DNA of 58,919 bases from Verrucomicrobiales bacterium. Its GTDB lineage: Bacteria > Verrucomicrobiota > Verrucomicrobiia > Verrucomicrobiales > V1-33. Below, in pieces: positions 17,890 through 55,492 of the stretch. Numbering within the stretch: the stretch's first letter is position 1; every line of letters starts with the position of its first letter. The position numbers were made by a program, and so were the translations under genes. The notes beneath the pieces are model-generated. The model was given only the letters and a program-made list of their open reading frames with translations. It searched no databases and had not been told where the DNA came from. The DNA is taken from assembly GCA_018003315.1 (NCBI GenBank), contig JAGNEJ010000021.1, positions 1-58,919 on the forward strand. The letters are read 5' to 3'.

Positions 17890-19191
17890 TCAAACCGCCA
17901 GCGGTCCGCCTTCGCAGAGTTTTTTGTTTCCGAAGCTGGCGGTGTGATGTCCCATGGCGTGGGCGATGGCCAGCCAGAGGCGGTTGTGGGCCACGTTGTC
18001 GAACTGCAGCGCCCGGCCCATCTTCCACCCCAGTCCACCGCCAAGGAGCAGGAAAGGAATGTTGTCGTGCGAATGGCTGTTGCCCTTGCCCAGTTCGTTC
18101 GTCCAGACGATGGTGGTGTGGTCCAGCAGGGTGCCGCTGCCGCCCGGTTCAGGGGTGGCGTCCAGCTTCTGGGCAAGCCGGGCCAGTTCCCCGGCGAACC
18201 ACTGGTTGATCTGAACGAGCTTTTCCTGCGAGTCCTTGTTGAGGTCGGGATCGTGGGAAAGCGCATGGTGATTTTCCTTGATGCCCAGCCACTGCATGCG
18301 CGCCTGGCCGACGGAGGCGGTGTATTGCAGCGAGGCGACGCGGGTGAGGTCGTTGGCCAGCGCACTGGCGAGGAGGTCGATCTGCATGGCGGAGGCTTTG
18401 GGCATGTCGTCGTTGCCGTCGCCGACTCCGGCCTCCTGCACGGGCGGCGGCTGGCGCAGCTTTTCCTCGTGCCGGTTCTGCAGGTCCCGCTCCATTTCCC
18501 GGACAAATGTCAGGTTTTTGTCGAGCAGGACCTTTTCCTCCGCGCTGGCAGAGGCCGCCACCCGGTTCAGATCAGCGGCGATTTCATCCAGCACGCTGGC
18601 GACGTTTTCGCGGTCCTTGAGGGAGCCGTAGAGCTGTTCGAACATTTGATAGGGATCGCTGACCGGCGCGAGCGGCTGGTTCGGGCCGCCGTAAACCCAG
18701 CGGGTCCAGGGGTCGGCGCGGTTGGGCACGGCGACGCCGAATTCCACCGATCCGAACCGGGTGGCGGTCTCCGGTTTCGACTGGAGGAAATTGCGCAGCT
18801 CCTGGTCGATCGAACGTCCGCTGGCCCAGCCGGCGGGGGTTTCCCCGCCGCCCTGGATGTTGCCGGGGAACAATTCAATGGCGGTGAGCAGGCAGCTCAT
18901 GCCGCGCATGTGTCCGTCTCCGTCCCCGCGGACTTTGTTGGAGATGCCTTTGAGGGTGAGCATCCGGTTCCAGTACGGCTTGAGCGGTTCGAGAATGCGC
19001 TTGCCGCCGAAATCCGTCCCTGGTGCGTCCGGCCAGAAGTCGGGCTGCACGGTGCCGTTGGGTGAAAACAGGAAAATGATGCGCTGGACCGGCGCACCAT
19101 TGTCCACAGCCCGCAGCCGGTGCAGCGGCGGCAGGAATGGCAGGGCAGCGGCGGAAAGCCCGAGGCGGTGGAGGAAGGTGCGGCGGTTCAT
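17890..19191 (-). CDS. DUF1552 secreted protein
   Basis: This is a 433-residue protein of DUF1552. The N-terminus MNRRTFLHRLGLSAAALPFLPP carries a twin-arginine (Tat) signal. Conserved phrases are RIIFLFSPNGTVQPDFW, LTLKGISN, GHMRGMSCLLT and DHTTIVWTNELGKGNSHSHDNIPFLLLGG. The fold is alkaline-phosphatase/DUF1501-like. In PVC bacteria these genes pair with cytochrome c/DUF1592 genes, as here, where the start overlaps the upstream stop by ATGA. The molecular function is not established. Confidence 0.92.
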   Translation of the reverse strand: MNRRTFLHRLGLSAAALPFLPPLHRLRAVDNGAPVQRIIFLFSPNGTVQPDFWPDAPGTDFGGKRILEPLKPYWNRMLTLKGISNKVRGDGDGHMRGMSCLLTAIELFPGNIQGGGETPAGWASGRSIDQELRNFLQSKPETATRFGSVEFGVAVPNRADPWTRWVYGGPNQPLAPVSDPYQMFEQLYGSLKDRENVASVLDEIAADLNRVAASASAEEKVLLDKNLTFVREMERDLQNRHEEKLRQPPPVQEAGVGDGNDDMPKASAMQIDLLASALANDLTRVASLQYTASVGQARMQWLGIKENHHALSHDPDLNKDSQEKLVQINQWFAGELARLAQKLDATPEPGGSGTLLDHTTIVWTNELGKGNSHSHDNIPFLLLGGGLGWKMGRALQFDNVAHNRLWLAIAHAMGHHTASFGNKKLCEGGPLAV

Positions 19192-21569
19192 GGCGGTTGC
19201 GTGGCGGGAGGCGGACTGGTGGTGGCTGCCGAGGTGGCCGGTGCGGGGACTTTCCCCAGCACCGCGGCCACTGTGATGTCCACGATGAGCTTTTGAAGAT
19301 TGCAGTTGCTGGCGGAGAAGGATTCCTCCAGCCGCTCGAGCGTCTCCGGACCGCAGACGGAGGGCGGCTGCTTCACGAGATGCTGGAAAAGCTGGCGGAC
19401 GAACCCGCGGCGCGCCGTGCGGTTTTCCGCGGCGTGCAGCGCCAAATCCCGCGGCCCTCTGAGTTTCACGGTTTCGCCATCCACCGTGAGGTAGTCGGAC
19501 ACCGGGTCCACCGCCTTGTGATTGTCGGTGGTGCGCCAGCGTCCGGTGGCGTCGAAGTTTTCCAGACTGAAGCCGAGTGGGTTGATCATGACATGACACC
19601 CCATGCAGGCGGTTTTGCCCGTGAGCTGGGTGACCTTCTCCCGCATGGTCAGCGACGGGTCGAACCGGTCGTCCATGAATTCAATGGCCATGGGCGGCGG
19701 CTTGAGGAAGCGGCCCATGATGCTGCGCGTCAGGAACACGCCCCGATGAATGGGCGAAGTGGATTTATGATAGGAAAGCGAGGTCAGGACCAGCGGGTGC
19801 GTCAGGACTCCGGCGCGCTGCGCGGGATCAAAGGAGACCTTCACAAACCCATCCGTCTCCGGCACCGCCACGCCGTAGTATTTGGCGAGCCGTGGATTGA
19901 GAAACAGATAGTCCGCCAGAAGCAACTGGCGGTAGTCCGCTGTTTCGCTCCAGACCACATGGTCAATGAACAATTCCAGCGAGCGGCGCATGTCGCAGAC
20001 CAGCTGGGCATCGAACCCTGGAAAGGCGGTTTTGTCCTTGTCGAGGTGGTCCGTCTCGTTCATCCCCAGCCAGTCGGCGAAGAAGCCGGCGATTTTGGTC
20101 CGGGTGCGCGGATCCTTGAGCATCCGCTCCGCCTGCCGACGCACCTGGTCCGGCGAGAGGGTTTCCCCGCGCCCAGCCGCATTCAGAAGGTCTGCGTCCG
20201 GAATGGAATCCCAGAGCGTCAGGGCGAGCCGGGCGCTGATTTTGAATGGATCGTCCTGCGCACCGAGTTCCGGATACAAAAACCGCGGTGACTTGAAGAT
20301 GGCAACCAGTGAGCGCTTGACGGCCAGTTCGACAGGAACTCCGTCGGCGAATGGCTTGTCGACGTAGAGAACGCGCAGGTCCCCAGTGAGCGGGCGGCGG
20401 AAGGCGCGTTCCGCCACGGCAGCCAGCATGACCTTGCATTTTTCCGCACGGTCGGGCGCCTTGTCATCCGCACCGGAAAGTCGGCGCAGCCGGGCCAGCA
20501 CCTGCGCACCGAGTTCCAGGGCGGCCTTGGTCGTGGCTTCATGCCAGTCTTTGGAAACGGAGACGCCCCGTTCAAAGCCGGAACTGGCATCATCCGCCGG
20601 AAAATTCACCGTCACGGTTGTCACCGGACGGCTGGATTCCGGGGAAAGCCAGGGGGCGGCCAGCACCTCCCATTCACCGCCTGGAGGCTTCCATTCCAGC
20701 CGGACGGACCCTAGCTTGTCCTTGTATTTGAAATAGTCGAACCGGATGGGATAGCTGCGGCCGCCCAGCAGAAAGACACGGGCGGTGACTTCCCGGACAT
20801 CCGTTCCGGAACTGACCCAGGCATCAATGGTGGGCGGCGTTCCTTTTTCGCCGCTGTCGTCGCGGTGGTTGCCGGCTCCGCGCTGCAGATCGGTGTTCAG
20901 ATAGAGCCGCGCCCCGTTTGGAGTGCGCACCCGGAAGTCATGCCAGCCGGTGTTCTGCGGAAGCAGGGAACCATCCCAGGAAATCGAAAACTGATCCGCG
21001 GCAATGCCCTCCGCCGGACCGGCCTCGCCGAAATCAAAAACCAGCGACCGGTCCACGCGCTGCAGCCCCTTGCGCGCCTTTTTATTCATGCCGTCCGACT
21101 GGAAATAATCGCCATGCAGCCCGGTCGCAGCCCCGCGGGGCTGGGGCGGCTGCAGGCTGGCGATGACATCGGCGGCGGATTCCTGAAACTGCCGGTTGGT
21201 TAGTCGCGCTGCAGCCCGCTTTTCCGGAAACATCCGAGCCCGCGCGGTGGTCGAGTAAAATTCGTTGTAAATCCACTCCGCCACCTGGGCGGATCCTTTG
21301 GCATCCAGCGTTTCCTCCTCATCCTCCGGCATTGACCGGTCGATGTACTTCGCCAGTGCGGCGAGAGATTTTTCCCCGTAAATGGGTTCATCATGCTTTC
21401 CGGCCACGCCCTGGCCGCGGTCTCCGTGGCACTTGGCGCACATGTCCTGGTAAATCGTTGCGCCGGGGTGCTGCGCGGAAACGTCGGCGGCCACGGACAC
21501 CGCGGCAACCGCCAAAAAGGCGCCGGGCACGGAAGCAGCCGGGAAGAAGGTGGAAAATGGCAATCGCAT
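19188..21569 (-). CDS. Cytochrome c/DUF1592-family multi-domain secreted protein (DUF1587-PA14-DUF1595-DUF1592-DUF1588-DUF1585)
   Basis: This is a 793-residue exported protein. After a signal peptide it has a c-type heme motif C44-AKC-H48 with YQDMCAKCHGDRGQG. A DUF1587-like segment (RLTNRQFQESAADV) follows, then a PA14-like insert (residues about 150-270, LHGDYFQSDG, WHDFRVRTPNGARLYL). Next come DUF1595, DUF1592 (LALTLWDSIPDADLLNAAGRG), DUF1588 with a second CxxCH (CMGCHVMINPLGFSLENFD) and DUF1585 (TVDGETVKLRGPRDLA). It is coupled to DUF1552. The pair is widespread in Planctomycetes and Verrucomicrobia and tied by inference to periplasmic redox or polymer breakdown. Confidence 0.92.
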   Translation of the reverse strand: MRLPFSTFFPAASVPGAFLAVAAVSVAADVSAQHPGATIYQDMCAKCHGDRGQGVAGKHDEPIYGEKSLAALAKYIDRSMPEDEEETLDAKGSAQVAEWIYNEFYSTTARARMFPEKRAAARLTNRQFQESAADVIASLQPPQPRGAATGLHGDYFQSDGMNKKARKGLQRVDRSLVFDFGEAGPAEGIAADQFSISWDGSLLPQNTGWHDFRVRTPNGARLYLNTDLQRGAGNHRDDSGEKGTPPTIDAWVSSGTDVREVTARVFLLGGRSYPIRFDYFKYKDKLGSVRLEWKPPGGEWEVLAAPWLSPESSRPVTTVTVNFPADDASSGFERGVSVSKDWHEATTKAALELGAQVLARLRRLSGADDKAPDRAEKCKVMLAAVAERAFRRPLTGDLRVLYVDKPFADGVPVELAVKRSLVAIFKSPRFLYPELGAQDDPFKISARLALTLWDSIPDADLLNAAGRGETLSPDQVRRQAERMLKDPRTRTKIAGFFADWLGMNETDHLDKDKTAFPGFDAQLVCDMRRSLELFIDHVVWSETADYRQLLLADYLFLNPRLAKYYGVAVPETDGFVKVSFDPAQRAGVLTHPLVLTSLSYHKSTSPIHRGVFLTRSIMGRFLKPPPMAIEFMDDRFDPSLTMREKVTQLTGKTACMGCHVMINPLGFSLENFDATGRWRTTDNHKAVDPVSDYLTVDGETVKLRGPRDLALHAAENRTARRGFVRQLFQHLVKQPPSVCGPETLERLEESFSASNCNLQKLIVDITVAAVLGKVPAPATSAATTSPPPATQPP

Positions 21570-44744: not shown

Positions 44745-45512
44745 TCACAGTCCCGTCGGGTGGTCCACAAATTCCCAAGGCAATCCGAATTCCTGCGCCG
44801 CCCAGTCGGCGAGCGCCTTCACGCCGAAGGTTTCGGTGGCGTAGTGGCCGGCATAGAAAAGGTTGATCCCCAGTTCTTCCGCCAGGGTGTAACTCCAGTG
44901 CGGACCTTCACCGGTGATGAAGGCGTCCAACCCGGCACTGGCCGCCGCGGCCACCTCGCTGCCCGCACCGCCAGTGACGATGCCGACGCTGCGAATGATG
45001 GCCGGTCCGGCGGGACAGACATGCACCCGCGCACCGCCAGTGGCCGCTGCGATGCTTTCTGTCAGGGTTTCCCGCGGCATTTCCGTGGCAAATCGCAGGC
45101 CCACCGGCATCCCTTTCCAGTCGCCAAAGGGTTCGCCCCCGGTGAATCCACAGGCGGCAGCAAGCCGCGCATTGTTTCCCAGCAGCGGATGGACATCCAG
45201 CGGCAGATGCGCACTGTATATCGCCAGATCGTGATCCATGGCCAGCTTCAGCTTGCGGAAGACGCCGCCGGCGATCATCTGCACCCCGGACCAGAACAGT
45301 CCATGATGCACGAGCAAAAGCTGCGCCCCAGACTGGACCGCGGCTTCGATCACCGGCAGGCAGGCATCCACCGCAGCCGCCACTTTGTTTACGGAACCGG
45401 AGGCATTGGCCAATTGCAGGCCATTCCACGCTCCGGCATAGTCCGGAATCTCCGCAACACGCAGTTCGGAATGCAGACGGGCGGCAAGGTCGGACAAGGG
45501 GACGGAAGGCAT
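44745..45512 (-). CDS. Nif3-like dinuclear metal center protein
   Basis: This is a 255-residue NIF3/DUF34 protein, often annotated as GTP cyclohydrolase 1 type 2 homolog. Metal ligands are in LLLVHHGLFWSG (His-His) and LFYAGHYATETFGV (His, Glu). DYAGAWNGLQLAN and FITGEGPHWSYTLAEELGI are conserved. It forms a toroidal hexamer in known members. The biochemical role is unsettled. A 199-bp piece of this gene is repeated in inverted orientation at 45725-45923. Confidence 0.92.
   Translation of the reverse strand: MPSVPLSDLAARLHSELRVAEIPDYAGAWNGLQLANASGSVNKVAAAVDACLPVIEAAVQSGAQLLLVHHGLFWSGVQMIAGGVFRKLKLAMDHDLAIYSAHLPLDVHPLLGNNARLAAACGFTGGEPFGDWKGMPVGLRFATEMPRETLTESIAAATGGARVHVCPAGPAIIRSVGIVTGGAGSEVAAAASAGLDAFITGEGPHWSYTLAEELGINLFYAGHYATETFGVKALADWAAQEFGLPWEFVDHPTGL
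45185..45383 (-). repeat. Inverted duplication, copy within nif3
   Basis: This segment of the nif3 gene, codons for VAAAVDACLP to SAHLPLDVHP, is repeated at 45725-45923 on the other strand. By my count there are about ten mismatches over 199 aligned bases and no gaps, near 95% identity. The arms are 341 bases apart. Confidence 0.9.
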
Positions 45513-45724: not shown

Positions 45725-45923
45725 GTGGCGGCTGCGGTGGATGCCTGCCTGCCGGTGATCGAAGCCGCGCTCCAGTTGGGAGCGCAGCTTTTGCTCGTGC
45801 ATCACGGACTGTTCTGGTCCGGAGTGCAGATGATCGCCGGCGGCGTCTTCCGCAAGCTGAAACTGGCCATGGATCACGATCTGGCGATATACAGTGCGCA
45901 TCGGTCGCTGGATGTCCGTCCGC
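45725..45923 (+). pseudogene. nif3 gene fragment, inverted partial copy
   Basis: On the plus strand this reads VAAAVDACLPVIEAALQLG, the Q-to-HHGLFWSG core, and SAHRSLDVRP, matching residues 43-109 of the Nif3 protein at 44745-45512. It lacks the start, the rest of the protein and the second metal-binding half, so it cannot be functional alone. It is open in the frame of the Crp/Fnr gene but no start supports a fusion. Codon differences are few, so the duplication is recent. Confidence 0.85.
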
Positions 45924-46022: not shown

Positions 46023-46036
46023 TTGATTCAGATCAA
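46023..46036 (+). promoter_or_regulatory. FNR/DNR-type operator, TTGATTCAGATCAA
   Basis: This is a perfect match to the FNR/Anr/Dnr consensus TTGAT-N4-ATCAA. It is centred about 61 bases upstream of the Crp/Fnr start at 46091. The recognition helix of that Crp/Fnr protein has the E-x2-S-R residues that read this half-site, so autoregulation is likely. The same N4 (TCAG) occurs in the site upstream of the Nod-like gene. Confidence 0.8.
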
Positions 46037-46843: not shown

Positions 46844-47349
46844 GTGTTCAGGGGCTGCCGTCCGCGGAAACGGACATTCCCAGCACGGTTGCGCCGGCGG
46901 CCCTGCGGGTATTTCTGCTGGTGGTGCTGGATCGCATTCGCGCCGGCAGTGAAACGCCGCTGCAATTCGATCTGGATGCGGCCCGCATTTTTGAGGAGGC
47001 GTGGAAAACCCTGACCGCCTCCGCCGGAACGTCGGCAAGGTGGGTGGAGGTGCGCCCGTGGCTGGACCGTCTGATGACGGAACTGCTTCCAACGGCGGGC
47101 GGACAGACCCGAACCTGGTGCGGACACTTGCCGCTGGAAACAGGTCCGGTCCAATGGGTTCACCTGCTCCAGGCTGCACTGCGCCAGGCAGATCCACAGT
47201 GCGCCGCCGTCGCCTGTCTGCGTGCCGAGGGCTGGCCGGAACGTGAAGCCGCTCGGCGCTGCGGTCTTGGTGCCCGCTTGTTCCGACACATAGCCGCCGC
47301 GTTTCACGAAGCCGACGCCCACCATTCCCCCACCCTTTCCAGGCCATGA
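46840..47349 (+). CDS. Small protein with a sigma-factor-region-4-like HTH, function unknown
   Basis: This is a 169-residue soluble protein. The N-terminal half (AALRVFLLVVLDRIRAGSE, RIFEEAWKTLTAS, WLDRLMTELLP) has no family I recognise. The C-terminus (ACLRAEGWPEREAARRCGLGARLFRHIAAAFHEA) looks like an HTH of sigma70 region 4 of ECF-like factors. A region 2 is not visible. It is translationally coupled on both sides by ATGA overlaps: with the Crp/Fnr gene upstream and the kinase downstream. A DNA-binding or sigma-like partner in a kinase operon is inferred. Confidence 0.6.
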   Translation: MSVQGLPSAETDIPSTVAPAALRVFLLVVLDRIRAGSETPLQFDLDAARIFEEAWKTLTASAGTSARWVEVRPWLDRLMTELLPTAGGQTRTWCGHLPLETGPVQWVHLLQAALRQADPQCAAVACLRAEGWPEREAARRCGLGARLFRHIAAAFHEADAHHSPTLSRP

Positions 47350-48665
47350 TGATCGCCATTGTCGAACGCCTGCAGGCTGGCGAGGCGGTGGCAGAGGAGC
47401 GCTTTGCAGGATGGAAAAACGCCCTGCACCAGCTTCGGGACGCCTTTGCGGGAAATGCGCCACCGGCAGTGGAGGAACTGCATCGCCTGACATCTCCCCT
47501 GCCCGCAGACCAGCGGGAGGCGGCCTGGCAGGACCTTGCATCCATCTTTCTGCGTGAATCGTGGAAATCGGTACAAGGAGCGAAGGTGGAGGTTCTGCTG
47601 CGCAGCATCGCGGATCCGTGCCATGATCTGCTGGCAAATCTGCTGGAGGAGGAATTCCTCGCCAGGCACCAGTGGCCGGCCGGCGACGCACCGGACCCGG
47701 CAGAATACACGCAGCGCTTTCCCAATGTCGCCGGACTCGCCGAGAGGCTCGATTCCCACCGCTGCGGCGGGGGGCGCTATGTGAAGCTCTCGCTTTGCGG
47801 AATCGGCGCCGCGGGCCAGGTGTGGGAGGCGCACGACCGTCGGGAGCGGCGGACGGTGGCGCTGAAACAACTGGCGGGCGAAACGGCTGCGCTTCAGGAT
47901 CTTCGAAGAAAGCTGCACGACGAATACTCCGTCGCCGCCAGCCTCAAACATCCTGGCATCATTGCGATGAACGACTGGCACGGCGAGGAATCCATCCCAT
48001 TCTTCACGATGGAATTGATCCGCGGCGAGTCGCTCTCCTCACGGATCGGAAATCTCCACTGTCCTCCACCGTCCCACACGGCAAGGGACATCGCCGAGGC
48101 ACGGGGCGCACTGCTGGAGGTGTTCCGTTCACTCTGCGAGGCCATGGAATTCGCCCACTCACGCGGCATCCTGCACCTCGATTTGAAACCGGCGAACATC
48201 CTCATCCGCGATGGGGCAGGTCCGGTGATTCTTGATTGGGGCGGAGCCCGCGAAGCCGCCGCGCGGGAATCATGCGGACACACCGCCGGCGTCATCGGAA
48301 CCCGCGAATACATGGCCCCGGAACAGGAAGATGGAAATCCGGAGGCGCGCAGCGACGTGTTCGGCTTGGGAGCCATCCTTTATGAAATCCTGACAGGACG
48401 ACCGCCGCGCCATCCATCTGGAAGCATACCGGAGGACCCGCGGCACGCCGAAGGAATCATCCCGCCCCGCAGTCTGGTTCCATCCATTCCACGCGAACTG
48501 GATGCGCTCTGTCTCAGGGCGCTCGCGGGAAATCCTGACAAGCGCTTCTCCACTCCATCGCAATTGGGCGATGCCGTGGGCCACCTTCTCGCACGGGAGG
48601 AAATGCCTGCCTGGCGGCGCATGCTGCACCGCATTTCCTGCCAGGCGGCAGACCCGTCCCGGTGA
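47346..48665 (+). CDS. Hanks-type serine/threonine protein kinase
   Basis: This is 439 residues. A 140-residue N-terminal region has PDPAEYTQRFP, typical of planctomycete/verrucomicrobial kinases. The kinase domain (145-420) has a Gly loop G152-IGAAG, K174 in VALKQL, catalytic H277-L-D279 (HLDLKPANI) and D297-W-G299 in place of DFG. GTREYMAPEQ and SDVFGLGAILYEILTGRPP are also present. All catalytic residues are there, so it should be active. No membrane segment or PASTA repeats follow, so it is probably cytosolic. It is the third gene of the Crp/Fnr operon. Its targets are unknown. Confidence 0.93.
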   Translation: MMIAIVERLQAGEAVAEERFAGWKNALHQLRDAFAGNAPPAVEELHRLTSPLPADQREAAWQDLASIFLRESWKSVQGAKVEVLLRSIADPCHDLLANLLEEEFLARHQWPAGDAPDPAEYTQRFPNVAGLAERLDSHRCGGGRYVKLSLCGIGAAGQVWEAHDRRERRTVALKQLAGETAALQDLRRKLHDEYSVAASLKHPGIIAMNDWHGEESIPFFTMELIRGESLSSRIGNLHCPPPSHTARDIAEARGALLEVFRSLCEAMEFAHSRGILHLDLKPANILIRDGAGPVILDWGGAREAAARESCGHTAGVIGTREYMAPEQEDGNPEARSDVFGLGAILYEILTGRPPRHPSGSIPEDPRHAEGIIPPRSLVPSIPRELDALCLRALAGNPDKRFSTPSQLGDAVGHLLAREEMPAWRRMLHRISCQAADPSR

Positions 48666-48692: not shown

Positions 48693-49931
48693 TCAGGCGA
48701 TGATGTCGAGGAGCGGATACTTCCCAATCACCGGTTCGCTTGGGATGCCCAACCATTTTTCGAGCACCGTGGCGTAGAGGCTGCGGAAGTCGGTGGAAAA
48801 CTTCAGACTGCCCCCGCCGCCGCCCTCAAGATCGGTCAGGCTGGGGTGCTTTCCGTGAATGCCGGGCTTGATGCCCGGGCCGAAGACGAACGAGACGCCG
48901 CCTGCGCCGTGGTCCGTTCCGCCGGTGCCGTTTTCCTGAACCCGGCGACCGAATTCGCTGGTGGTGAATGTCAGGACGCGCTTGGCGTGGCCCTGTTTGG
49001 CGAGGTCGGCCTGGAAGGCCACGACGGCATCGTTCAACTGGCCCATGAGATTGTTGTGGGCATCGCGCTGGCCGCTGTGGGTGTCGTAGCCGCCCTGGAA
49101 GGTGTAGTAGGCGCGGGTGCTCAGCCCGCCAACGATGAGTCCGGCGATGACTTTCAAATTGTTGCCGAGTTCTGTTGCTGGATATTCCGTCTGGCTCTTG
49201 TAGCCGGTGGCCAGTTCACGAATTCGCTGGCTGCAGGCATTGGCATTGACGGCGGTGCGGGTGACGAACGAGAGCGTGTCCGCAAGTGGCTGGGCCGCCG
49301 GTGCATTGAATTTGGCATAGAGCGCCGCCCGGTTCTTGTCGCCGTGGTCGCCTTTGAAGCGGAAGGCATCGGGCTGGTAGAAACTCAGCCCCGGGTGCTC
49401 CTGCCCTTCGATGGCCAGCGGCGCCTGGCCGCTGCCCACTGCCATGGCAAGCTGCGGGTCGGGATTGCCCTTGAAGCCGACGTCCAGAGCGCGTCCGATC
49501 CAGCCGTATTTCAAATCCCTGCCGCGCGGATCCGCGGCGTGCCAGATGTCCGTGGCAGTGAAGTGGCTGTAGTTGGGATTGGGATAACCGACGCCCGGCA
49601 CGGCAGCGAACGCTCCCTGGGCCAGCAGTTCCTTGAAGCCATGCAGCCGGGGATGCAGGCCCAGTTCGCTGTCCAGTTTGATGACTTCCTCATCCTTGAT
49701 GCGGGTCAGATTGCGCATTTTGCCGTATTCGGCATGGCCGAACGGGACCAGCGAGCTGATGGAGTCGTTGCCGCCGCTCATTTGAATGACGACAAGAACA
49801 CGGTCATTCACGGGCTCCGGGGCGGCCAGGGAAGTGCGCAGCAGATAATCGGGCAGCACGGTGCTCACACCGATGAGTCCGAGACCGCGGGCAAGAAAAT
49901 CGCGGCGGGTGGCAATGGGCAAACGGTTCAT
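48693..49931 (-). CDS. DUF1501 secreted protein
   Basis: This is a 412-residue protein with a Tat signal (MNRLPIATRRDFLARGLG). VLVVIQMSGGNDSISSLVPFG, HGFKELLAQGAFAAVPGVGYPNPNYSHF, the FTTSEFGRRVQENGTGGTDHGAGG motif and FGPGIKPGIHG are DUF1501 signatures. The fold is alkaline-phosphatase-like. It pairs with the DUF1800 gene 32 bases upstream. The biochemical role is not established. Confidence 0.93.
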   Translation of the reverse strand: MNRLPIATRRDFLARGLGLIGVSTVLPDYLLRTSLAAPEPVNDRVLVVIQMSGGNDSISSLVPFGHAEYGKMRNLTRIKDEEVIKLDSELGLHPRLHGFKELLAQGAFAAVPGVGYPNPNYSHFTATDIWHAADPRGRDLKYGWIGRALDVGFKGNPDPQLAMAVGSGQAPLAIEGQEHPGLSFYQPDAFRFKGDHGDKNRAALYAKFNAPAAQPLADTLSFVTRTAVNANACSQRIRELATGYKSQTEYPATELGNNLKVIAGLIVGGLSTRAYYTFQGGYDTHSGQRDAHNNLMGQLNDAVVAFQADLAKQGHAKRVLTFTTSEFGRRVQENGTGGTDHGAGGVSFVFGPGIKPGIHGKHPSLTDLEGGGGGSLKFSTDFRSLYATVLEKWLGIPSEPVIGKYPLLDIIA

Positions 49932-49963: not shown

Positions 49964-52171
49964 TCAGGACACCTGGAATTCCGGAGTGCTCAGCAGCGCC
50001 GCGGCCGCGGCGCGCAGACGGGCGTTGATTTGATCGCGCTGCGTGGCCCATTCGGCGGGCGGCGGCAGGGGACCGAGAAAACGGATCAGTTCCGCACGCT
50101 TCGCCTCGTTGAGCGGGAGCAGCATCAGGCCTCTGGCGAGCCAGTCCACAGCGGCTTCCGTTTGCTGGATGCCCCTGGCTTCGAGCAGCGCGGCCAGATT
50201 TGCCGTTGACTGATCCACCAGCGCGGCCAGGGCGTTGTAGCGCGTGAGCAGGCGGCTGGTATTGATCCAGTCGCGTCCGCCGTCCCAGCCTTTGACGCTG
50301 GGAGGTTCGAAGAGTTTCTGCCCCATTTCCACCATCGCATTGTCCAGCGCTGCGTAGTTCACGTCCTTGAGGCCCAGCGTCCGAATCGCCCCCGCCATCA
50401 GTTCCGCAGGGCTTTTGATATGGGCGACCGCCGCTGCAGGGCTGTAAAATTCTTCCGACAGGAAGAGGTTTCTGAGCACGGGTGCGATGTCATAGCGGCA
50501 GGTGCGCAGGGTGCCGGCGATCTGATCCAGCATGGCGGCGGAAGGATTGTCATGAACGAAGAAGCGAAAAATCTTGCCGGCCACAAATCGTGCGGTTGCG
50601 GGCTGTTGCAGGATCATGTCCACCAGGTCATCTCCGCCCCAGTTGCCGGAGCGGCCAAAGATGGTCTTCGGCGTCTCGTCGTGGCGGGTGGCAATGAATT
50701 TGAATTGGCCGGTGGCATGCTCATAACTGTAGCCGGTGAGGGCGCGCGAGGCCTCGCGGAGGTCCTGCTCGCTATAGCCCTGGCCTTCGCCCATGGAGAA
50801 CAACTCAAGAATTTCCCGTCCGAGATTTTCGTTCCCGGCTCCCTTGAAATTCGCCTGATTGTCCAGATAGGCAATCATGGCCGGATCCTGCGCAATGCCG
50901 CGGAGCAGACCGCCGAAATTTCCCGCGGCAAAGTCCCGGAAAAGACGGTTCTGCCGGTACATGATGTGAGGGTTTTCGTTTTTCGTGAAATTCACCGCGA
51001 AGTGGCCGTGCCACAGGAGGGTGAGCTTCTCCTCCAGCGGTCGCTGTGACTCCGCCATGCGCTGCAGCCACCATTTCCTCAGATTTTCCTGCTGCTGGAA
51101 GCGCCGCGAAGTGCGTTCGTTACCGAGTTTGAACCGCTCGGATTCGACAAGCCGGTGTTCGAACGGTGTTTCCGTTTCCGGCTGGCGCACGTCCACGCTG
51201 ATGGCCGGCTCTGGCAGTTTCTGGAAATCCACCAGGAAATCCACGGCCGCGTGCAGCCCCATGGCGTGCAGTTTGGTGACTTCCTCCACCGAGCCGCCGA
51301 ATCCGGCGCGCCAGAGCAGGTGGCGGGCTTTGGCAAAGTCCCATGCCTTGCCGCTCAGCGGCTTGAGTCCTCCAATCAGGCTTGCCTGGGTCGCCGCGTT
51401 CGCATCCAGCAGCGCGGGAATTTCCGCGGTCTTTTGGGCAATGGTTGCCGCTGCGGCATCGCGGGCGGCAACGGCGGCGGCATGGGCGGCGACCGCCGTC
51501 TTGGTGGCTTCCACCAACGCCAGCGTGGCCCCCGATTTTTCGGTCACGGCCTTTTCCTCCGCTGCTTTGGCGGCACTGACCGCAGCCGCGGCCTTCTGGA
51601 TTTCCGGCTCTTTGGCAGCGACCACTTTCTCGGCCTCAGCCTTGGCCGCACGCGCCTTTTCCAAGCCATCAACGGCCGCAAAGGCCTCCTCCGCCAGGAC
51701 GGATTCCGCCGCGGTCCGCTCGGCAGTCTGCGCTTTGGAATACGCCTGCTCTGCAGCGGTTTTCTCTGCGGCTGCCTTGTCAGCAGCAGTCTTGGCAGCG
51801 GTGGCGGCATCCGCGGCGGATTTTGATGCGGCCGCTTTGTCGGCGGCGATTTTGTCTGCGGCGGCCTTGTCGGCGGCAGCCTTCGCTGCAGAATTTGCTG
51901 CGCTCGCCGATTCCGCAGCCAGCCGGTCGGCAAGTTCTTTTGCCGCGGAGGCTTTGTCGGATTCAGCTTTCGCCGCGGCGACTTTTGCGTCGAGCGACTG
52001 TTTTGCAGCACCGCTTTCCGCGGATGCTTTTGCGAGGCCCGCCCGGGCCGCATCCACCGGCGAGGGCGGTGCGGGGGTCGCTGGATCGGCGAGGGAAATC
52101 ACCGCCAGGCAGGAGAGCAGGGGCGGCAGCAGCGCCGCAGTGGACATTCGGAAGCAATGGATTCGTTTCAT
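49964..52171 (-). CDS. DUF1800 protein with a long Ala/Lys-rich coiled coil
   Basis: This is 735 residues. A signal peptide (LLPPLLSCLAVISLADPATPA) starts the protein at 52171. Residues about 40-270 are almost only Ala, Lys, Glu, Asp and Ser in heptad-like order (KAAADKAAADKIAADKA), a predicted long coiled coil. The C-terminal DUF1800 domain (about 285-730) has ARHLLWRAGFGGSVEEV, LTLLWHGHFAVNFTK, GNENLGREILELFSMGEG and PPSVKGWDGGRDWINTSRLL. A stalk this long is unusual for DUF1800. It is co-transcribed with DUF1501. Confidence 0.92.
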   Translation of the reverse strand: MKRIHCFRMSTAALLPPLLSCLAVISLADPATPAPPSPVDAARAGLAKASAESGAAKQSLDAKVAAAKAESDKASAAKELADRLAAESASAANSAAKAAADKAAADKIAADKAAASKSAADAATAAKTAADKAAAEKTAAEQAYSKAQTAERTAAESVLAEEAFAAVDGLEKARAAKAEAEKVVAAKEPEIQKAAAAVSAAKAAEEKAVTEKSGATLALVEATKTAVAAHAAAVAARDAAAATIAQKTAEIPALLDANAATQASLIGGLKPLSGKAWDFAKARHLLWRAGFGGSVEEVTKLHAMGLHAAVDFLVDFQKLPEPAISVDVRQPETETPFEHRLVESERFKLGNERTSRRFQQQENLRKWWLQRMAESQRPLEEKLTLLWHGHFAVNFTKNENPHIMYRQNRLFRDFAAGNFGGLLRGIAQDPAMIAYLDNQANFKGAGNENLGREILELFSMGEGQGYSEQDLREASRALTGYSYEHATGQFKFIATRHDETPKTIFGRSGNWGGDDLVDMILQQPATARFVAGKIFRFFVHDNPSAAMLDQIAGTLRTCRYDIAPVLRNLFLSEEFYSPAAAVAHIKSPAELMAGAIRTLGLKDVNYAALDNAMVEMGQKLFEPPSVKGWDGGRDWINTSRLLTRYNALAALVDQSTANLAALLEARGIQQTEAAVDWLARGLMLLPLNEAKRAELIRFLGPLPPPAEWATQRDQINARLRAAAAALLSTPEFQVS

Positions 52172-52322: not shown

Positions 52323-52685
52323 TCAGGGCCGCCGACCCCGCAGCCATGCGAAGAGGCCTCCGGCATCACGGGTCTGCTGGGCGGAGGAAAAGCGCCATTC
52401 TCCGGTGTCGCCGCGGCCTCGAAAATCGGTCCATTGCATGTGAATGGCATCATCCCCGCAGGGATCAATGCACAGGCCGCAACTGGTGCAGCGGTCCGGT
52501 TGTGTCAGGACGGCGGCATCCCAAACAATCTCCAGCGCCGAGACCGGGCAGACGGCGGCACATCGTCCGCATCCGACACAGAATCCGTTGATGGCCGGCA
52601 GGTGCTTCTGTCCCGACACCGGCGCGGATTGCGCCGGTGCGTCCGCAGTGCGGAGATCCGCCTCCATGGTGGCATCGCGGTTCAT
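52323..52685 (-). CDS. 2x[4Fe-4S] ferredoxin-domain protein
   Basis: This is a 120-residue protein with two cluster motifs. FCVGCGRCAAVCPVSAL is a full C-x2-C-x2-C-x3-C-P. RCTSCGLCIDPCGDDAI has the fourth Cys but Gly in place of Pro. The start at 52685 overlaps the stop of the NO reductase-family gene by ATGA, so the two are coupled. The ferredoxin may bring electrons to the enzyme, or to an assembly or sensor step. This is inferred from coupling. Confidence 0.88.
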   Translation of the reverse strand: MNRDATMEADLRTADAPAQSAPVSGQKHLPAINGFCVGCGRCAAVCPVSALEIVWDAAVLTQPDRCTSCGLCIDPCGDDAIHMQWTDFRGRGDTGEWRFSSAQQTRDAGGLFAWLRGRRP

Positions 52686-55144
52686 GGCTCGTTGTCCGGA
52701 ATTTTGTCAGCCAGCATGGTGGCGCTGTCACCAGGACCGCCGCCGAGGTCGGAAACTCCGGTGACTGCCAGCACCGAGCGGGGAACGACAAACATTTCCG
52801 CAGCCGTCTGGGCCGGGCGCTGGTCAAACCACCGAGTCACCATGAACCAAACGAGCGGAAACAGCCCGCCGACAATGAAGACGGTGACGCCGACGCCGCG
52901 CAGCATCGTGTAGAACTGGAACGATTCCGCCTGGATGAAGTTCTGGGAGCGAGCGGCGGCATAGCCGTCCTCCATCGCCACCATCAGCTGATGCACTCCG
53001 GCCGGAAACAGATCCATGACCACCATCAGCAGGAGCCCAAGATTCATCGACCAGAATGCGGTCTTGAGGAGTCCGCCGTTCCAACGCTTGGGCACGATGT
53101 TCCAGCGTCCGCAGAAGAGCATGGCGGCAATGGCAAGGTTTCCATAGACTCCGAACAACGCCGCGTGAGCGTGGTTTACCGTCAGGTAGGTGCCGTGCTG
53201 GTAGTAATTGACGATCGGGAGATTGATCGTAAAGCCCAGCACGCCGGCCCCGAAGAAGTTCCAGAAGTTCACGCCCACAAGAAACAGAAAGGCAGTGTCC
53301 AGCCCGAAGGTCGCCTGCGGACCTCCAGTGCGGCGCATTTCTGCAAGCATGGTTCCCGGCATGTGGCGGAACCTCCATGCCGACACCGTCAGCAGCACCA
53401 GTGGCGCGACCTGGAGGCTGGAGAGCACGCCGCCGAGGGCGATGGTTTCGATGGATTTGGCATTCCAGTAGAAATTATGGGAGATGCCGATGAGTCCGGA
53501 ACCGAGGAAGAGCAGGGAGGCCAGATAGACCACGCGGGCCGCCACCCGGTGACTGATGAAGCCCATCAGATACATGAAGTAAGCCACGATGATGGTTGTG
53601 AATACTTCAAAGAATGCCTCCACCCACATGTGGATGGTGCACCAGCGCCAGAAGTCGGCGATGACGAAATTGGTTTCAGGCTTGGCGACAAACGATGCCG
53701 TGAACATGAAAATGATGCCGGCGATGGAATAGACCATCCAGTTTGGGAGCGACCAGGACTGCTTCTGCCGCAGTGCCGGCCACAGACCGCGCCACACGAT
53801 GACCAGCCAGGCGACGAAGGCGGCAAAGAGAATGTATTGATAGACGCGTCCGATCTGCATGAACTCCCAGCCTTGAAGGCCGAACCATGAAGTGGCGGCC
53901 TCGCCGAAGACACCCTTGACGCCGAGCGGCATGCCGATGGTGCCGCCGACGGCAACGACCACCAGCATCCAAAACAGGGCGTTGATCCACTTGAGCTGCC
54001 CTTTTGGTTCCGGGCGGCAAACCAGCGGAAGCACCCAGATGGTGGCGGCAAACCAGCACACGGAAATCCACAGCACGGAAATCTGGGAATGCCAGCCGCG
54101 GGTTACGGTCACGGGCAGGACTTTGTTGACATCCAGGCCGATCTTCGCAAACCACCCCAGGAAATCCGCCAGCGTCATCACTCCCGCCATTACCTGGATG
54201 AAGAAGAGCAGCGCGGCGACCGCAAAATATTTGTAAGTGGCCCGCTGCGTTTCAGTCGGTTTGAATGAGTCCACCACCGCGCTGGAGGCGAACGGAGCCT
54301 GCCGCGTGTTGTGCTTCTCCTCCATCTCCTCCTGGTCCATTTTGCCGTAGTAATAAAAGATCACTCCGATGGAGAGGATGACCACCAGCACCCCGATGAC
54401 GCTCCAGAGCACCAGACCTCCGTGAGGTGTGTTTCCGGCGATGGGTTCGTAGGGCCAGTTGTGGGTGTAGCTGTAGGTGTATCCGGGGCGCTCCGCGGCA
54501 CACAGCCAGCCGCCCCAGTAGCAAAAGGCCGCCAGTTGGCGCTTTTCCTCCTCCGAACCGATGTACTTGCCGGGTTTGAAGTGTTCCTTTTTGGCAAGCG
54601 CACCGCCTTCTCCGTAAACCTCCGAATAGTAGCGCACCAGATGGTGGAAGGCGTCAGCCTGCGCCGGCGTCATGACCACCGCTCCCGCCTTGCGGTATTC
54701 CTCGGACCCTCCCGGGTGATTGGCATAAAAATTCGGATCATGCCGGTTTTTCTTCAATTCAGCCTGCACCACGGACTGCACCACCGCCTTGCGTTCGGCA
54801 TCGTCGGCGACTTTTTCCTTCCAGTCCTTTTCCTTGAATTCCATCATCCGTTCCGCGGTCACTTTCAGGGCTTCCCCGCTGAAATCCGGGCCGCGCATTC
54901 CGCCGTCACCCAGGAAGCTTCCGTATTCCATCAGCCCGTAGCGAAAGAACACCTTCTGCCCCGCAACGATGTCTTCCGCCCGGAAGACGACCTCATTCTT
55001 TTCATCGACAAAATCGCAGACAGGCGGCGCGTATTGATAGGTCTTGTAACCGATATACCCCACCACCGCCACACTGACGGCAAAAATGAGGACGAAAATC
55101 TTCCACCAGTGCTTGCGTTGATCGATCAATTTTAATGCTTTCAT
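52682..55144 (-). CDS. qNor-family protein with nitric oxide dismutase (Nod)-like active site
   Basis: This is an 820-residue membrane protein of the NorZ family. Residues 1-240 form the periplasmic domain after one helix (MVFRAEDIVAGQKVFFRYG-like, PGGSEEYRKAG), followed by 12 or more helices. Conserved residues are W351-H352, H505-M-W-V-E509, H556, and H658-A-H660 (NHAHAALFG, heme b/b3). In place of the Geobacillus qNor quinol residues H328/E332/F336 it has L325/L329/A333. In place of FeB ligand H560 and of E581 it has N557 and Q578. This pattern matches putative NO dismutase (2 NO to N2 + O2). The family is certain; the Nod reaction is inferred. Confidence 0.9.
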   Translation of the reverse strand: MKALKLIDQRKHWWKIFVLIFAVSVAVVGYIGYKTYQYAPPVCDFVDEKNEVVFRAEDIVAGQKVFFRYGLMEYGSFLGDGGMRGPDFSGEALKVTAERMMEFKEKDWKEKVADDAERKAVVQSVVQAELKKNRHDPNFYANHPGGSEEYRKAGAVVMTPAQADAFHHLVRYYSEVYGEGGALAKKEHFKPGKYIGSEEEKRQLAAFCYWGGWLCAAERPGYTYSYTHNWPYEPIAGNTPHGGLVLWSVIGVLVVILSIGVIFYYYGKMDQEEMEEKHNTRQAPFASSAVVDSFKPTETQRATYKYFAVAALLFFIQVMAGVMTLADFLGWFAKIGLDVNKVLPVTVTRGWHSQISVLWISVCWFAATIWVLPLVCRPEPKGQLKWINALFWMLVVVAVGGTIGMPLGVKGVFGEAATSWFGLQGWEFMQIGRVYQYILFAAFVAWLVIVWRGLWPALRQKQSWSLPNWMVYSIAGIIFMFTASFVAKPETNFVIADFWRWCTIHMWVEAFFEVFTTIIVAYFMYLMGFISHRVAARVVYLASLLFLGSGLIGISHNFYWNAKSIETIALGGVLSSLQVAPLVLLTVSAWRFRHMPGTMLAEMRRTGGPQATFGLDTAFLFLVGVNFWNFFGAGVLGFTINLPIVNYYQHGTYLTVNHAHAALFGVYGNLAIAAMLFCGRWNIVPKRWNGGLLKTAFWSMNLGLLLMVVMDLFPAGVHQLMVAMEDGYAAARSQNFIQAESFQFYTMLRGVGVTVFIVGGLFPLVWFMVTRWFDQRPAQTAAEMFVVPRSVLAVTGVSDLGGGPGDSATMLADKIPDNEP

Positions 55145-55492
55145 GAAACGGCGACATTGGTTGTTGGCAATTCAGCCGACTGACAATTTTGGTTGGGAAC
55201 AGGCGGCGAGAAACATGAGGGCGCTTTTGACGCGGAAAAAATGCCCGCCCGTTGCGTCGATTTCCAAGAATTGAATGCGTATCGACACGCCAAAACCCCA
55301 TGGGAATCCAATTCTATTGACTCAGGTCAAGGGCTGAAGCCGCAAGGGAACGTGCCGACGCGGCCAAGGCGGGCCAAGTCCTGTGTTAGGATGCTTCTGC
55401 GAACGGCCTGCCGGATCGATTTTCCCGTGGTCAATCCGCTGCGACAGCATTCGCAGGGGCGCAAAATACCCACGGTGACGGGCATGGGAGAC
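55145..55492. other. Upstream region of the Nod-like gene with no gene
   Basis: These 348 bases lie between the start of the NO reductase-family gene (minus) and the end of an isomerase gene (minus). They hold an FNR/DNR-type site at 55317-55330 and TAGAAT at 55311-55316, a fair -10 for minus-strand transcription. The leader of about 140-170 bases is unusually long. I see no small gene. Confidence 0.6.
55317..55330 (-). promoter_or_regulatory. FNR/DNR-type operator, TTGACTCAGGTCAA (plus-strand reading)
   Basis: This palindrome is TTGAC-N4-GTCAA with the same central TCAG as the perfect box at 46023-46036. Its centre is about 180 bases upstream of the Nod-like start at 55144. It fits control by a TTGA-reading Crp/Fnr regulator such as the one at 46091-46843. 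Confidence 0.75.

Follow-up and report, generated by a model that had tools for sequence, protein, structure and literature searches.

Nitric oxide dismutases and related reductases

Putative nitric oxide dismutases (Nods) are described from Candidatus Methylomirabilis oxyfera (DAMO_2434/2437), strain HdN1, and Muricauda (PMC3413370). The production of O2 by Nod is a family-level hypothesis for which physiology in other organisms is supportive (PMC3413370, PMC13386854). The literature is contested, and no Nod has been purified or biochemically characterized as O2-making (PMC13386854). Two published general nod primers encode the motifs YTHNWP and FYWIAKP (PMC6636425). Genes for Nod have also been reported in two Scalindua MAGs (PMC10359470).

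The locus described here lies in a window of 58,919 nucleotides, the whole stretch that was analyzed, from contig JAGNEJ010000021.1 of a Verrucomicrobiales bacterium (GCA_018003315.1). Its putative Nod shares with those of M. oxyfera, HdN1, and Muricauda the H560-to-N and E581-to-Q replacements, the lost quinol site, the qNor fold, and the YTHNWP and FYW-AK motifs. It belongs to a different Nod clade as far as tested, with NC10 and HdN1 compared through primer-site motifs only. No pMMO is found beside the gene; its neighbors are instead a ferredoxin, DUF1800, and DUF1501.

The Nods of Ca. Scalindua and other Planctomycetota (loci L032-L037, L039, L041, and L042) are in the same clade as the window Nod, with 63-70% identity and an identical catalytic signature. 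Neither the ferredoxin nor the DUF1800/DUF1501 genes occur at the Scalindua loci; the other planctomycete loci have most of them. Bacteroidota-type Nods (Algoriphagus, Hydrotalea, Saprospiraceae) resemble the window Nod in their N557 and Q578 equivalents and in the loss of E332 and D746. They differ in being 46-50% identical, in often retaining His at the H328 column, and in that no linked ferredoxin was found. The qNors of Geobacillus (3AYF) and Alcaligenes (8BGW) have the fold, domain layout, H508, E512, and H559 in common with the window Nod, but the latter has a changed quinol site and FeB ligand set and sits on a separate branch of the tree.

The nod gene and its product

52682-55144, minus strand: nod, putative NO dismutase of 820 amino acids with a qNor fold (from domains, alignment, tree, and model)

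The first-pass annotation had placed an NO reductase-family gene on this reading frame, and the frame is real: a Pfam search finds a COX1 domain and a NorB cytochrome c-like domain in the product. Geobacillus qNor (3AYF) aligns over nearly its full length (E=1e-138, ~35% identity), and the closest solved structures are all qNors. An AlphaFold model built from 32 homologues has a mean pLDDT of 82.5 and a pTM of 0.85, with 3AYF as the top fold match (TM 0.84/0.91, rmsd 2.8). No NCBIfam model names the protein. In the plasmid collection, the sole matches are qNor-like, at ~35%.

Catalytic and quinol-site residues

Residues were mapped, in Geobacillus qNor numbering, by aligning 85 Nod-type rows with 16 qNors. 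The catalytic residues are as first proposed: H508, E512, and H559 are kept as H505, E509, and H556, while H560 is N557 and E581 is Q578. A qNor has an FeB site with three histidines and a conserved Glu581, as well as an intact quinol site (H328, E332, F336, D746). In the window protein, all four quinol-site residues are replaced, and the combination of FeB His560 to Asn, Glu581 to Gln, and lost quinol residues, with the other ligands and the qNor fold retained, is that of a Nod. The loss of the quinol site had been recognized in the first-pass annotation, but the residues it named (L325/L329/A333) are one position out of register. The correct replacements are H328 to A326, E332 to G330, and F336 to K334, and the fourth residue, D746, is V753. 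Nor is the alignment gapless with a constant offset of three, as had been described; there are several gaps relative to 3AYF, and the offset is two at the quinol site.

Among Nod-type rows with letters at these columns, N557 is present in 84/84 and Q578 in 83/83, while all 16 qNors have H and E. As judged from this invariance in the aligned relatives, the N and Q substitutions are far beyond chance. E332 and D746 are lost in all aligned Nod-type rows. His is kept at the H328 column in 37 of them, mostly of the Bacteroidota type, and a lost H328 alone is therefore unfit to define Nod. At the two primer sites, the window Nod reads YTHNWPY and FYWNAK.

Phylogeny and distribution

The tree and the AU test were computed with the signature columns removed and the NC10 and HdN1 Nods left out. 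Nods and qNors split at 99% SH-aLRT. The window Nod is inside a 14-member planctomycete-type clade (support 100%), adjoining Scalindua and G429, a genome of the same order; its members are mostly 63-70% identical. Forcing the window protein with the qNors is rejected (AU p 1e-5). The tree places the protein in Nod, apart from the qNors. Together, the residues, the two published primer-site motifs, and the tree strongly support family membership, and the protein is almost certainly a member of the Nod family.

Named genomes were scanned with the patterns KH[WF]WK[IV]F (KHWWKIF in its simplest form) and YTHNWPY. Neither pattern contains a signature residue, and the helper alignment behind them allowed for a known primer-site variant. 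The H,E,H,N,Q signature is present in 80/80 of the best loci. The nearest of these are Ca. Scalindua (70% identity) and other Planctomycetota (63-68%), with a gammaproteobacterial MAG at 65%, a deltaproteobacterial MAG at 61%, and Bacteroidota and others at 46-50%. No NC10 Nod is among the best 80 loci, and the comparison with NC10 is made through the published primers only.

Within a sample of the host's own phylum, a match of any kind occurs in 22 of 388 genomes, and the remaining full qNor-type matches all carry H and E. In its own order (387 genomes), nod is found in the window genome, G429, and G018. The G429 gene is in two contig pieces that are 66-70% identical to the window Nod. The G018 gene is cut by a contig end after the first 40 amino acids (78% identical), with DUF1501 adjoining. 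Such a scattered occurrence suggests that nod was transferred horizontally or repeatedly lost.

Two MAGs, one deltaproteobacterial (L077, 4633-6765 and 7001-8731) and one flavobacterial (L082, 7001-9289 and 9618-11879), carry two highly divergent nod genes in tandem. In each, a relative of the window Nod (61% or 48%) is beside a 37-39% one with an HNFYWIAK motif.

The nod gene cluster

52323-52685, minus strand: Nod-linked ferredoxin with two four-Cys cluster motifs; its start codon and the nod stop codon share bases (ATGA)
49964-52171, minus strand: DUF1800 protein with a probable signal peptide (Pfam PF08811, E=1e-115); start inferred at an internal ATG
48693-49931, minus strand: DUF1501 protein with a twin-arginine signal (ATRRDFLARG; Pfam PF07394), paired with DUF1800; start inferred at an internal ATG
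47346-48665, plus strand: Ser/Thr protein kinase (domain search), with homologues near nod in L036, L037, and L041
46840-47349, plus strand: small protein without a family, before the kinase here and in L036 and L037
46091-46843, plus strand: Crp/Fnr-family regulator with an ETLSR recognition helix; the listed ORF start, 45665, is too early

The genes nod, ferredoxin, DUF1800, and DUF1501 run in the same direction, and the four-base overlap of nod and ferredoxin shows, from gene coordinates, an operon-like arrangement. In a homology search, ferredoxin homologues directly follow nod in L034, L035, L036, L037, L039, L040, and L143. A strict double-cluster pattern matched two of the loci because most of the homologues lack one second-cluster cysteine; the homology search recovered the remainder. 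Both four-cysteine sets are present in the window and L040 ferredoxins. One second-cluster Cys is mostly absent from the others (L034 10266, L036 9418, L037 9508, L035 6418, L039 9471, and L143 1376), which suggests that their second cluster may be [3Fe-4S] or absent. No export signal is visible in the window ferredoxin.

DUF1800 adjoins nod in most loci of the window's Nod clade. DUF1501, usually with DUF1800, is near nod in 8/14 clade loci, the window and G018 counted. With 22 DUF1501 genes in the 5.09 Mb of the host genome, ~7-8% of random genes are expected to have one as near; the loci are not independent, and planctomycete genomes may hold more copies. The DUF1800/DUF1501 pair is also beside nod in six planctomycete loci of another Nod clade (L045-L047, L056, L106, and L078). 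A model of the DUF1800 domain (window 49964-51358) has a pLDDT of 87 and a pTM of 0.87. A PDB fold search with this model gave no match (best E 0.46), and the predicted domain is apparently an unsolved fold.

No oxygenase was seen beside nod. The nod neighbors in a 2026 survey differ from those here and include cytochrome c peroxidases, mau genes, NsrR, and OxyR (PMC13386854). Elsewhere in the window, 19188-21569 encodes a protein with cytochrome c, PA14, and DUF1592/DUF1588 domains.

FNR-type boxes and the regulator

55317-55330: FNR/DNR-type box TTGACCTGAGTCAA, ~170 bp upstream of the nod start
46023-46036: FNR-type box TTGATTCAGATCAA, 55 bp upstream of the Crp/Fnr regulator start

These are the only FNR-type boxes in the window, where 0.15 are expected and 0/100 shuffles reach two. 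The palindrome TTGAC-N4-GTCAA of the box before nod is found at 12 places in the genome, compared with 2 for a reversed control pattern. The ETLSR helix of the regulator is typical of FNR-like proteins. Around nirK and nosZ, the retrieved sequence showed no FNR-type box. In the accessible literature, the conserved nod-ferredoxin-DUF1800-DUF1501 cluster (with the kinase and the Crp/Fnr regulator) and the FNR-type boxes before nod and the regulator are new.

A fragment of the NIF3-family gene (44745-45512, minus strand) forms a 199-nt inverted duplication (95%; 45185-45383 and 45725-45923) directly before the regulator. It may be a scar at the cluster's edge.

Nitrogen and oxygen enzymes of the host

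The genome encodes NirK and a clade II NosZ. No NirS is over the cut-off, and no NarG is found in the genome. Other oxidases are CoxA, a CcoN-CcoO fusion (cbb3), a divergent CcoN-like protein, and a B-type heme-copper oxidase (L114 1399-3111, contig C12). In the latter, the equivalent of ba3 Tyr237 is Gln, and a CuA subunit adjoins. From the missing tyrosine, this oxidase is probably an sNOR-type NO reductase. Reduction of nitrite to N2 is thus probably feasible in the host without Nod. Given NirK, NosZ, and this NOR-like oxidase, Nod is probably a second route for NO and not the sole one. The host probably reduces NO with enzymes other than Nod and can likewise reduce N2O, so its gene set does not imply oxygenic NO dismutation.

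A DUF1501 gene is ~4 kb from nosZ on genome contig C79 (67808-68965 and 73121-74938), a possible further link between DUF1501 and nitrogen-oxide metabolism. The first-pass annotation had called the host a polysaccharide degrader, which is not borne out among the window genes scanned.

Proposed function and alternatives

The overall reading that we moderately favor is a Nod-family qNor derivative, encoded in an FNR-controlled cluster, that disproportionates NO. In the active site, heme b3 would sit beside a non-heme metal whose ligands are two His, Glu, and Asn; the sequence shows the fold, these ligands, and the loss of the quinol site. At low oxygen or in the presence of NO, the Crp/Fnr regulator would turn on nod-ferredoxin-DUF1800-DUF1501. 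NO would be supplied by the host NirK or an outside source. Nod would then bind two NO and turn them into N2 and O2 without a net supply of electrons. The host cbb3 or CoxA oxidases may consume that O2, or the reaction may serve NO detoxification. By analogy with the family, the chances that O2 production is the main reaction of the window Nod are about even, and internal oxygen production in the host is possible. In favor of this reading are the residue signature and fold, the primer-site motifs, the tree, the host's NirK, NosZ, and O2-reducing oxidases, and the two FNR-type boxes in the window. Dismutation needs no electrons, so the dedicated ferredoxin beside nod, which suggests electron input, counts against this proposal. 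Further points against it are the contested literature on Nod, the NOR-like oxidase and NosZ in the genome, the finding of no FNR-type box upstream of nod in 11 clade relatives, and the lack of an oxygenase beside nod.

Nod may instead be mainly an NO scavenger that makes little physiological O2, with the ferredoxin and DUF1800/DUF1501 serving assembly, cluster repair, or sensing. This possibility is the less probable one but deserves weight: FNR-type boxes are present in the window, NO-stress regulators are found beside other nod genes (PMC13386854), and the host has another NOR-like enzyme and NosZ. It leaves unexplained why E332, D746, and the third FeB histidine are invariably lost.

NO reductase activity fed by the enzyme's own ferredoxin, or by another non-quinol carrier, would make N2O or N2 for detoxification. 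The lost quinol site, a specific ferredoxin whose gene shares bases with nod here and comes immediately after it in seven relatives of other genomes, and a NosZ that could remove N2O all fit such a reductase, yet we regard it as unlikely. The active-site Asn and Gln occur together without exception in every Nod clade, although in most of these clades no ferredoxin of this kind is seen close to nod, and the Scalindua members of the window's clade have none at the locus. Known NORs are supplied with electrons by the quinol pool or from the periplasm, and a ferredoxin without a visible export signal does not resemble either route.

A tentative idea is that the planctomycete-verrucomicrobial Nod clade is a distinct system made up of Nod, a dedicated ferredoxin, and exported DUF1800-DUF1501. 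Either electrons would enter Nod for a reaction beyond pure dismutation, or NO-derived O2 would be passed to periplasmic oxidation by the DUF proteins.

A planctomycete contig wrongly binned into a verrucomicrobial genome is improbable. The nearest named homologues are in Planctomycetota, and the assembly has 155 contigs (96.5% complete, 2.6% contamination). However, the same-order G018 and G429 hold nod pieces (78% over 40 aa; 66-70% over longer stretches), DUF1501 is beside the G018 gene, and the presence of nod in these relatives makes mis-binning unlikely. The 16S rRNA of the genome has an exact site for EUB338-III, the probe designed for Verrucomicrobia. This site and the kindred nod genes of G018 and G429 support the verrucomicrobial context given in the first-pass annotation. 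The ~35% identity and shared fold might suggest a normal quinol-dependent NO reductase that carries a few neutral changes. This is highly improbable and is refuted as far as sequence allows, since every member of the clade shows the E332/D746 loss and the H-to-N and E-to-Q changes, and a placement with qNors is rejected in the tree.

Significance

Planctomycete Nod, including that of Scalindua, was already known (PMC10359470); the additions here are Nod in Verrucomicrobiota and the ferredoxin/DUF cluster. The conserved ferredoxin is a concrete handle on Nod function and the most testable lead, since pure dismutation requires no donor of electrons. If Nod makes O2, light-independent oxygen production would extend to Verrucomicrobiota with NirK, NosZ, and high-affinity oxidases. 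One enzyme clade links such Verrucomicrobiota with anammox planctomycetes.
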